From the NCBI GenBank assembly GCA_019358835.1, contig JAHHIH010000013.1, positions 62,001 through 126,000 of the forward strand: a stretch of DNA of 64,000 nt. The letters run 5' to 3'. Positions 1-4,857 of the stretch are shown piece by piece (position 1 is the stretch's first letter; every line of letters starts with the position of its first letter). Below the pieces are notes generated by a model that made no database searches, was not told the origin of the DNA, and saw only the letters and a list, made by a program, of their open reading frames with translations. Origin of the DNA: Tildeniella torsiva UHER 1998/13D (GTDB lineage Bacteria; Cyanobacteriota; Cyanobacteriia; Phormidesmidales; Phormidesmidaceae). The translations under genes and the position numbers were made by a program.

Positions 1-1831
1 GATCAAACGCTGCTAGCGGCCCCACGGTGGCGCTGACTCTGCGCTTCAAACCATCCAGCAGGCCCACCTCCACCGCCGTCCCCGCCTCGGCATACTCAGG
101 GACGACCTGGGCCATGGCGATGCTGGCGTTGAGAACGGGCGAAAACGTGGCGCTGGTGATCTGCCCCACTCGCCACCGTTCCCCTGCGGCGAAAACGGGC
201 TGGCCATGGGTCGCCACCTCTGGCCCGGCTAGCACTAGCCCCACCGCCACCCTGGGGGGATGGTGACGGATGGCTTCTAGCGCCGCTTTGCCGACAAAAT
301 CGGGCTTTTTCATCGCCACGGCCCAGCCCAGACCCGCCTGGTAGGGCGAGGTCAAATCATCAAACTCGTAGCCCAGGGCCAGCAATCCGGCTTCGATGCG
401 GGCGCGATCGAGGGCTTTCATGCCCAGGGGCAGCAGTCTCGCTGATTTGCCAGCCGTCATGAGAGCTTCCCACAGCGCTGCGCCGTTTTGGGGTTGCACA
501 AACAGCTCGTAGCCCAGTTCTCCGGTGTAGCCTGTGCGCGAAATCAGCACTGGAATTCCCTGCACCTGGGATTCTAAAAACTGGAAATAGCTCAGAGTTG
601 AAACGTCTGGCACTAGGGCTGTGAGAATTTCTCGGGAGCACGGCCCTTGGAGGGCAAGGTTGTGGAGATCCACGGCCTCTACCGCCACCGACCACCCTTT
701 TTGCTGGGCAATTTGCCTGAGCCAATTGCGATCGGTGTCGCAGTTGCCCACGTAGCGGTAGCGGGTAGGGCTAAAGCAAAACACAATGCCGTCATCGACA
801 ATGCCGCCGTGGGGATTGAGCAAGCAGCCGTAGGCTCCCTGCCCAGGGACTACTTTTTCCAGGTTGCGAGAAAAGGCGTACTGCACCAGGGCAAAGGCAT
901 CGGTGCCGCGAATCTCAAACTTGCGCAGGACCGAGAGATCCATCAGGGCGGCCCGCTGGCGCAGCGCCCAGTACTCAGCCTGGTTGCCCTGGTGGGCAAA
1001 GGTTTGGGGCACCCAAAAGCCGTTGTACTCTGCCAAATCATCCGTGAGCTGGCGAATGCTGGGGGTGAAAGCGCTGTCTTGGGTCAGGCGCAGGGGCAAA
1101 TCTGCCGCCACTCGTCGCCCCATCCCCCGCGCAAAGGTCTGCCCTGCCGCGTAGATGCGCACGTGAATTGGCGTGGGTTGCCAGCCATTCGCCGGGTCAA
1201 TGTCGTCGGGGCAGGAGGAGCTGGCGCAGAGCAAATCTTGGTGGGCCAGCAGCAGCACGTAGTCGCCGGGGCGAGAGAGGGGTTCTGCGAAGGCGATCGC
1301 CCCCTGCCCATTCACACTGGTGTTGTAGAAAAAGTTGAGGGCGGGCCAGCCGGGGCGCGGTGCAATGCCGTAGGGAGCCAGCACCCGGTTGAAGTTGTCG
1401 CTACAGCTGGGGTGGCCGGGGTAGCCTGCATCTTCGTAGTAGCGGGCGGTGCAGGCGAGCAAAAAGCTGTCGTGGCGACCGCAGGTATCTTGCACCACCT
1501 CCGTCAGCGGCTGCATAGATTGCGAAAAGAGTTTGCTGGGCAGCCCCGCCTGGGGGACGGCTAACCCGGTGAGGGTGCGAGTGACCGTGGCATCGAGCGG
1601 GTCGCTGTAGTGCTCGCCGCCAAAGGCCAGAAAGTCGGAGCACTGGGAGCCAGCGACATCAATAATTTGGATGAATTGGCCAGCGGTGACGGAGTAGGCG
1701 ATGGCCCCCCAGGGCCGGTCTTTGACCATCGCATCTCCGGGCGCAATGCGATACTCGGCTACCACATCCCCCAGCGGTGGTGGAATATCGGTAAACCGGT
1801 CGGTTGTCGAAATTCGCAGTGCAGTTGTCAT
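1..1831 (-). CDS. DUF1989 (urea carboxylase/carboxyguanidine deiminase-associated family) fused to a GcvT-like aminomethyltransferase; 3' end runs off the window
   Basis: Absent from the ORF track because there is no stop inside the window. Manual reverse translation from ATG at 1831 gives MTTALRISTTDRFTDIPPPLGDVVAEYRIAPGDAMVKDRPWGAIAYSV..., with DUF1989-like motifs GRHDSFLLACTARYYED, HPSCSDNFNRVL, LNFFYNTSVNGQGAI, PGDYVLLLAHQDLLCASSSCPDDIDPANGWQPTPIHVRI, then GcvT motifs NPHGGIVDDGIV and MKALDRARIEAGLLALGYEFDDLTSPYQAGLGWAV. Confidence 0.85.
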   Translation of the reverse strand, partial: MTTALRISTTDRFTDIPPPLGDVVAEYRIAPGDAMVKDRPWGAIAYSVTAGQFIQIIDVAGSQCSDFLAFGGEHYSDPLDATVTRTLTGLAVPQAGLPSKLFSQSMQPLTEVVQDTCGRHDSFLLACTARYYEDAGYPGHPSCSDNFNRVLAPYGIAPRPGWPALNFFYNTSVNGQGAIAFAEPLSRPGDYVLLLAHQDLLCASSSCPDDIDPANGWQPTPIHVRIYAAGQTFARGMGRRVAADLPLRLTQDSAFTPSIRQLTDDLAEYNGFWVPQTFAHQGNQAEYWALRQRAALMDLSVLRKFEIRGTDAFALVQYAFSRNLEKVVPGQGAYGCLLNPHGGIVDDGIVFCFSPTRYRYVGNCDTDRNWLRQIAQQKGWSVAVEAVDLHNLALQGPCSREILTALVPDVSTLSYFQFLESQVQGIPVLISRTGYTGELGYELFVQPQNGAALWEALMTAGKSARLLPLGMKALDRARIEAGLLALGYEFDDLTSPYQAGLGWAVAMKKPDFVGKAALEAIRHHPPRVAVGLVLAGPEVATHGQPVFAAGERWRVGQITSATFSPVLNASIAMAQVVPEYAEAGTAVEVGLLDGLKRRVSATVGPLAAFD

Positions 1832-2049: not shown

Positions 2050-4857
2050 GTGGCCCAAGACCCAGTCACCCAAACGCGATCGCGCCCCGTTCAGAGCATT
2101 CCCCTGCGGCTGTTGCTGATTGTCCCCTTTGCCGCCCAGATTTTTGCGGCGGTGGGGCTGACCGGCTGGCTCTCCTTGCGCAACGGACAGCAGGCCGTCA
2201 ACGAGGTGGCCAGCCAGCTACGCAGCGAGATTACCAGCCGCATTGACCAACAGCTCACGGTCTATTTCGAGATTCCCCACACCGTCAATGCCATCACTAT
2301 CGACGCCCTTGGCCGCTTTGATCTGTGGAACCCCCAGGATATGAGCGCCCTGCGCAGCTATCTGCTGGGGCAGCTGAAGCAGTTTCCGGAGGTCAGCTAC
2401 ATCAGCTTTGGCGGGGAGCAGACCGAGTATGCCGGGGCGGGCCGCAAGGCCGATGGCACCCTGGTGATAGAAATTACCGACAGCTCCACTAATTTTGTCA
2501 ACACCATTACCGCCGTAGATGAGCGGGGCAACCCCACCGGGGCGATCGAAACCTACCCTGACTATGACCCGCGTCTGCGCCCCTGGTATGTGAATGCCAA
2601 AACCGCCGGAGAGCCTGTGTGGAACGACATCTACCAGTACTTTATTGAGGCAAACTTAGGCATTTCTACCAGCCGGCCCTATCGAGATGAAGCAGGGGTT
2701 TTTCGCGGGGTGGTCAGCACCGACATGTACCTGATTGGCATCAGCGACTTTTTGAACCGCCTAAAAATTGGGGAAACGGGGGAGACCTTTATTGTCGATC
2801 GCGCTGGACTGATCGTCGCTTCTTCCACCGATGAGTCGCCGTTTATCAGACGCGACGATAGCGACGCGACCGAACGCCTGCGGGCAACCGATAGCCAGGT
2901 GGCGCTGATTCGCGAGACCAGCCGCTTTTTGGCGGCAAAATTTGGCGATCTGTCCCAAATACGCACGGTGCAGCAGCTGGAGTTTACCGTCAATGGGCGG
3001 CGGGAGTTTGTGCAGGTCGCCCCGTTTAACGACGGCCAGGGGCTGGACTGGCTGATTGTGGTCGTGGTGCCCGAGGCCGACTTTATGGCCCAAATCCAGG
3101 CGAATACCCGCATCACCGTTTTGCTCTGTCTGCTGGCGCTGGCGATCGCCACCGGCCTGGGCCTACTCACCTCCCAATGGATTACCCGACCCATTTTGCG
3201 GTTGAACCGGGCCAGCCAGGCGATCGCCGACGGCGATCTGAACCAAACCACGACCATCACTGGCGTCCAGGAATTAGAAAGCCTGTCTAACGCCTTCAAC
3301 CAGATGGCCTATCAGCTCAAAACCGCCTTTACCGAACTCGAGGTGCGGGTTGATGAACGAACCGCCGCCCTGCGCGAGGCCAAGGCCGCCGCCGAAGTCG
3401 CCAACCAGGCCAAAAGCGACTTCTTAGCCAATATGAGCCACGAACTGCGCACCCCGCTCAATGCCATTCTGGGGTTTACCCAAATGCTCAAGCGCCAGAT
3501 TAACGGTAGCTACGAGCAGCGCAGCTATCTCAATATCATCGGCACCAGCGGCGAGCACCTGCTCAACTTGATCAACGACGTGCTGGACATGGCCAAAATT
3601 GAGGCCGGTCGCACCACCCTGACCCTAGAAAGCTTTGATCTCCACGGGCTGCTCACCACCCTCAACGATATGTTTCAGCTACGGGCCGACACCAAGGGTT
3701 TGCAGCTAGTGGTCAGCCGCTCCGCTGGGGTGCCCCAATACATTCGCACCGACGAGCGCAAACTGCGCCAGGTGCTGATTAATCTGCTGAGCAATGCGAT
3801 TAAATTTACCACCGCAGGTCAGGTCATCCTGGCGGTAGACCGGGCGGCAGCAGACCCCAACCCCAATCAGGCCTTGGTCACCTCGCCGCTGCGGCTCCGG
3901 TTTGTGGTCACCGATACGGGGGCAGGCATTGCCCGCGAAGAGCTTGACCACGTCTTTGAGCCCTTTGTGCAAACCCGCCTGGGCCAGCAGGCCAACCAGG
4001 GCACTGGTCTGGGCCTGACGATTAGCAACCAGTTTGTGCAGCTCTTGGGTGGGCAGCTGGCGGTCGAGAGCACCCTGGGCCAGGGGTCTCGATTTTATTT
4101 TGAGCTGCCGGTGGAGGTGGCCAGCGCCAGCGACCTGCCGCTGCCGCCTACCGTGCGCCGGGTCGTGGGTCTAGAGCCGGGACAGCCCATCTATCGCATT
4201 TTGGTCGTGGACGATCGCTGGGAAAATCGCCAGCTGGTGGTGCGCATTATGGAACTGTTGGGCTACGAAACCCAGGAAGCTGAGGATGGTGAGCGGGCGA
4301 TCGCCCTCTGGCAAACCTGGCAACCCGATTTGATCTGGATGGACATGCGAATGCCCGGCCTAGACGGCTATGAGGCCACTCGCCAGATTCGCGCCATGGA
4401 AACCGCCCAGGCTCTTGACAGTCAAAGATCGGGCCTTGACCCACGTCCCTGCACCAAAATTGTGGCCCTGACCGCCAGCGCCTACGAAGAAGAGCGGGCC
4501 CTGGTGCTGGCCGTGGGCTGCGACGACTTCGTGCGCAAGCCTTTCCGCGAAGACGAACTGTTTAGCAAACTCGCCCAGCATTTAGGGGTGGTCTTTGTCT
4601 ACGCCATTCCCGAGTCGGCGGCAGACCCGGCGGCGGCAGCCGCACCGCTGACGGCGGCAGACCTGGCCGGGCTGCCCAACGCCTGGAAAACCCAGCTACA
4701 CCAAGCGGCCCAAACGCTGAGTGCCCAGCGGGCGATCGCGGTGATTGAAACCCTGCCCGCCGACCACAGTGCCCTAGCCCCGCCGCTGATGCAGCTTGTG
4801 TATAACTTTCGCTACGACATTCTGCTCGATCTCACCCAGGCTGCGGAAGAACCATGA
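2050..4857 (+). CDS. Hybrid sensor histidine kinase/response regulator (Cache-like sensor, HAMP, HisKA, HATPase, REC)
   Basis: GTG start; two TM segments flank a Cache-like region; [20 protein letters not shown]-box; [10 protein letters not shown]-box; C-terminal receiver [14 protein letters not shown]...[11 protein letters not shown]. Confidence 0.9.

Follow-up and report, generated by a model that had tools for sequence, protein, structure and literature searches.

The DNA analysed here, referred to as the window, comprises 64,000 nucleotides of Tildeniella torsiva UHER 1998/13D (G000:C44:62001-126000). It carries at its left edge the gene for what is probably a short-form member of the trimethylamine-N-oxide (TMAO) demethylase (Tdm) family. 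The protein most likely demethylates TMAO, a natural osmolyte of wide occurrence, and thereby serves nitrogen acquisition; the substrate and the role of a partner protein, termed X, we infer. The fusion type and its general chemistry are already known from Tdm, and the new part is the cyanobacterial form. Our literature search found no paper on a TMAO demethylase in cyanobacteria.

The tdm-like gene is a minus-strand open reading frame, which starts with ATG at 1831 and is open over 610 aa up to the window edge (1..1831, minus strand). In the neighbouring contig sequence the frame ends with TAG three codons past the edge (stop 10 bp outside the window), giving a total of 613 aa and a gene from window position -10 to 1831 (L002:13990-15831:-). 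The open frame read by the initial annotation was borne out by this leftward extension to the stop codon, as neither an internal stop nor a frameshift separates the two halves. The frame, said to have been missed by the ORF track, is real; its absence from the track reflects an ORF that runs off the window. Pfam matches well over cut-off upheld the proposed order of DUF1989 and GcvT. DUF1989 scored 155 bits (cut-off 27; aa 43-201, 1229..1705, minus strand), GCV_T 221 bits (aa 262-504, 320..1048, minus strand) and the GCV_T_C barrel 56 bits (aa 527-610, 2..253, minus strand). Close homologues of the DUF1989-GcvT fusion were present in 35/291 Cyanobacteriia genomes, the copy of G441 being cut at a contig edge. 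Thus, the fusion is not a product of chance.

The best PDB sequence match was the TMAO demethylase 9q59 with an E-value of 2.3e-163 and 46% identity over the shared core, where aa 15-605 aligned to chain residues 178-774. The second-best match was a plain GcvT (E 4.5e-52). The NCBIfam Tdm model NF053776 gave 761 bits over model positions 150-755. Its equivalog cut-off of 1100 was not reached, probably largely because about 150 N-terminal positions are missing. Tdm of M. silvestris combines DUF1989 and GcvT and converts TMAO to dimethylamine and formaldehyde (PMC12560246); our literature search found no paper on a Tdm structure. Because the architecture is that of TMAO demethylase, the earlier statement that the fusion cannot be assigned to a known pathway was wrong.

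A link to guanidine catabolism by CgdAB had been suggested as well. A fused carboxyguanidine deiminase of the CgdAB/UAAP type with a folate-linked role in the breakdown of guanidine or urea would agree with DUF1989 family membership and with the weak matches to the UAAP1/UAAP2 models of 98.3 and 67 bits. Yet these scores are far under the respective cut-offs of 284.7 and 206, and the genome has a single DUF1989 gene; for these reasons the guanidine reading fails. Furthermore, the Tdm match spans both domains, and no urea- or guanidine-type genes were recognised by eye among the listed ORFs neighbouring tdm. We consider this explanation hardly credible.

Next to the overall similarity, individual residues were informative. 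In M. silvestris Tdm, Zn is bound by C263, C279 and C343, while H276 and D346 were proposed for Fe (PMC12560246). The alignment assigned the Zn ligands to C127 (= C263; 1451..1453, minus strand), which is invariant across the aligned Tdm sequences, C143 (= C279) and C207 (= C343). These are the cysteines held by the three conserved motifs of the DUF1989 part that were pointed out initially. The proposed Fe ligands correspond to H140 (= H276; 1403..1414 together with C143, minus strand) and D210 (= D346; 1202..1213 together with C207, minus strand). D66 (1634..1636, minus strand) is the equivalent of D198, which is replaced by Ala in the 9q5a structure of the PDB. The Zn/Fe residues were invariant in the alignment of 17 cyanobacterial and 59 other homologues save one D210E. 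By homology, the DUF1989 domain would be the catalytic domain, binding Zn(II) via C127, C143 and C207 and probably Fe(II) via H140 and D210.

The GcvT domain of Tdm was argued to have lost the key THF-binding residues Arg and Tyr (PMC12560246). L474 and F351 of the window protein are the R223->L and Y101->F type substitutions of Tdm. Since the protein shares them, it is doubtful whether it passes the carbon directly to THF. The coupled C-N cleavage and C1 chemistry envisaged by the initial annotation was right in kind, less so its folate transfer. On the other hand, the GCV_T score of 221 bits and the GcvT/SoxA-like homology might point to a GcvT-type THF aminomethyl- or methyltransferase of the glycine cleavage or DMSP/dimethylglycine type, in which DUF1989 is regulatory. 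However, the NCBIfam GcvT models yielded 251.6 and 216.5 bits and thus stayed under their cut-offs of 300 and 235.85, the THF-contacting residues are lost as in Tdm, and the metal residues of DUF1989 are conserved. Such a transferase is very improbable.

To define the cyanobacterial form, named genomes were scanned; of 552 confirmed relatives the best 80 were used, namely 66 non-cyanobacterial and 14 cyanobacterial loci. The latter, the gene of the window and those of two additional genomes made up the 17 cyanobacterial genes compared. An N-terminal domain of about 150-190 aa was absent from all cyanobacterial loci (0/17) and present in 66/66 non-cyanobacterial loci of the best 80 of 552 relatives. 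Upstream of the start of the window protein at most 34 codons were open in 17/17 cyanobacterial genes, compared to at least 112 in 66/66 others. An HMM built from 59 of the non-cyanobacterial N-terminal domains detected the domain in all 66 non-cyanobacterial loci of this set. We rejected the possibility that the domain is hidden elsewhere in the cyanobacterial loci, where the HMM matched the Tdm frame alone. This match is expected because the N-domain is itself a relative of DUF1989 (probability 96% in a profile comparison). The domain was termed ubiquitous in a survey that dropped sequences with a query cover of 90% or less (PMC12560246). As our comparison covered the best 80 of 552 relatives, Tdm without the N-domain may also exist outside cyanobacteria.

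In the tree the 17 cyanobacterial Tdm formed one clade with a support of 100/100 and a branch length of 0.73; in view of this long branch the substrate could differ. A Tdm from a contig labelled as a Klebsiella pneumoniae MAG (L086) grouped with Rhodocyclaceae Tdm (100/100), which may be due to mis-binning or transfer.

The second distinctive property of the cyanobacterial form is protein X. In the window's genome, X is a protein of about 170 aa whose gene has the orientation of tdm and begins 12 bp past the stop codon of the latter, outside the window. X was directly downstream of tdm in 15/15 cyanobacterial loci with sequence there and beside tdm in 0/66 non-cyanobacterial loci of the best 80 of 552 relatives. 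In L045 the reading frame of X is shortened, perhaps by a frameshift. Among 291 Cyanobacteriia genomes 35 had Tdm, 38 had X and 34 had both (Fisher p 9e-39, a statistic that ignores phylogeny). The exceptions were G441, in which Tdm lies at a contig edge, and four partial matches to X. Those in G392, G315 and G005, which have no Tdm, could be left over from a system since lost. X was adjacent to tdm in 30/34 genomes with both, and present but unlinked in G416 and G373. A GntR-like regulator directly follows X in L050 and L051 and lies near the cluster at L034:2599-3012:-; it is a possible regulator of the system.

Pfam and NCBIfam gave no clear family match for X and no SoxG; weak GCV_T matches reached an E-value of 0.002 at best. 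The A2 and A3 profile searches of the PDB showed no credible match, 5il7 versus A3 being without an independently passing stretch. Yet hhalign aligned X with the GcvT domain of Tdm over 158 columns with a probability of 96%. The idea that X is the split-off N-terminal domain of long Tdm was rejected (hhalign 0.3% against the N-domain). The AlphaFold model of X (pLDDT 82, pTM 0.78) matched GcvT folds in Foldseek as well as 1vrq_C with an E-value of 4.5e-5 and a TM of 0.56 by target length. 1vrq_C is the short chain (195 residues) of heterotetrameric sarcosine oxidase, which we take to be the gamma subunit. X does not have the DD motif of GcvT, and with about 170 aa it is too short for the C-terminal barrel. 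The fold of X is predicted to be GcvT/SoxG-like, and by analogy to SoxG we propose X as an accessory subunit that would bind to Tdm.

We also looked at the supply of TMAO. Tmm was located near tdm in two cyanobacterial genomes, with a score of 770 bits for the G121 copy versus a curated cut-off of 675. It was present in 8/291 Cyanobacteriia genomes, and 8/8 also had Tdm. On the other hand 27/35 Tdm genomes, the window's genome among them, were without Tmm, so that TMAO would need to be imported there. Many other bacteria have Tmm beside the long form of tdm. Use of trimethylamine by cyanobacteria has been suggested from an FMO in Trichodesmium (PMC12206446).

These data bear on a further explanation, namely that the chemistry is the same, a metal-dependent N-demethylation or N-oxide cleavage, but that the short form and X changed the substrate to another methylated amine or N-oxide. 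The deep separate clade, the absence of the N-domain from every cyanobacterial locus examined, the absence of Tmm from most cyanobacterial Tdm genomes and the almost constant presence of X are in line with this proposal. It is countered by the conservation of all proposed catalytic residues and by the fact that Tmm in the sampled Cyanobacteriia is always accompanied by Tdm. We regard a changed substrate as unlikely and favor TMAO.

The later steps of such a route were sought among neighbouring and co-occurring genes. GmaS as the next enzyme was rejected because GmaS-type genes occurred in 3/35 cyanobacterial Tdm genomes, i.e. without association with Tdm. A PhyH-type Fe(II)/2-oxoglutarate oxygenase was found in 33/35 Tdm genomes of the Cyanobacteriia versus 6/256 others; inside the window's genus the PhyH subgroup was present in 5/5 genomes with Tdm and 0/7 others. 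The subgroup was delimited by E <= 1e-120, a threshold set after the score gap was seen, and p-values for gene co-occurrence ignore phylogeny. The oxygenase, a candidate dimethylamine demethylase, is located at L033:9674-10651:-, L034:6135-7046:- and L137:7701-8705:-. Some Proteobacteria and Actinomycetota also carry a PhyH-family gene close to tdm.

A copper amine oxidase was identified as a primary-amine oxidase with 991 bits versus a cut-off of 651. In the window's genus it was present in 5/5 genomes with Tdm versus 0/7, with a broader spread elsewhere. It shares a cluster with PhyH in the window's genome (L137), and in L045 and L046 it directly precedes tdm. Among solved structures, phenylethylamine oxidases are closest to it; thus methylamine as its substrate is a guess. 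Amt, PhyH, copper amine oxidase, an acyl-CoA-dehydrogenase-like gene or Tmm are neighbours of tdm in several cyanobacterial loci, and in Phormidesmis priestleyi Ana (L046) a single stretch holds a 500-aa glutamine-synthetase-like protein, an SBP, PhyH, an acyl-CoA-dehydrogenase-like gene, copper amine oxidase, Tdm, X, Amt and a small Amt neighbour.

Some of these neighbours recurred. The acyl-CoA-dehydrogenase-like gene (L046:6581-7942:+) lies upstream of tdm not only in cyanobacteria but also in some loci of the long form, with similar genes in L048-L053, L059, L061, L062, L065, L066, L083, L095, L106 and L118. The glutamine-synthetase-like protein (L033:15770-17272:+, L034:8048-9550:+, G000:C44:132484-133977) stayed under every GS equivalog cut-off; its cyanobacterial copies are about 63-79% identical to the top matches from a few tdm loci outside cyanobacteria. 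A small protein of 137-149 aa with no hits and a hydrophobic N-terminal stretch adjoins Amt in nine cyanobacterial tdm loci (e.g. L002:11293-11742:- and L034:4210-4623:-). The sensor kinase divergent from tdm in the window (dCache-HAMP-HisKA-HATPase-response-regulator; 2050..4857, plus strand) was rejected as a part of the system; it is absent beside tdm in the relatives fetched and therefore probably does not belong to it. Control by NtcA was rejected as well, as the site GTAN8TAC was not in excess upstream of tdm (1/17 loci).

Taken together, neighbours and co-occurrence suggest a route from TMAO via dimethylamine and methylamine to ammonium, every step of which we infer. The DUF1989 domain would act without O2 on an N-oxide, most likely TMAO, and form dimethylamine and formaldehyde. 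The latter may be taken up or shielded by the GcvT domain, or this domain may have a structural role. Nitrogen acquisition would draw on the products, and candidate enzymes for the last two steps are the PhyH-type oxygenase and the copper amine oxidase. In its most specific version, which we put forward tentatively as one possibility, the system would be a two-component TMAO demethylase in which X stands in for the lost N-domain, serving nitrogen scavenging independent of Dmm and GmaS, where PhyH demethylates dimethylamine and the copper amine oxidase frees ammonium. If the proposed function is true, methylated amines could serve as a nitrogen source for a range of cyanobacteria, most of them filamentous. 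The short Tdm would then show that the supposedly ubiquitous N-terminal domain is dispensable or replaceable, and X would be a direct handle on the role of the puzzling GcvT domain in Tdm.

Compared to M. silvestris Tdm (PDB 9q59/9q5l/9q5a; NF053776) the cyanobacterial form has the same order of DUF1989 and GcvT, the three Zn cysteines, equivalents of H276, D346 and D198, the loss of the THF-contacting Arg and Tyr of GcvT and, in some genomes, Tmm neighbours. It differs by the absence of the N-terminal degenerate DUF1989-like domain, by its separate branch and by the downstream partner X, often without Tmm. UAAP1/UAAP2, i.e. CgdAB, share the DUF1989 domain, yet the family models have about 200-230 aa and no GcvT part. 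SoxA/SoxG and GcvT are similar with respect to the GcvT domain of Tdm and the predicted fold of X; in contrast, the other sarcosine-oxidase domains are absent, and X has neither a SoxG family match nor room for a C-terminal barrel. The methylated-amine pathway of Ruegeria pomeroyi proceeds via Tmm, Tdm, Dmm and GmaS (PMC13390433). Its Tmm and Tdm steps are paralleled in eight sampled cyanobacterial genomes, whereas here GmaS is not associated with Tdm, and the candidates for the subsequent steps are the PhyH oxygenase and the copper amine oxidase.
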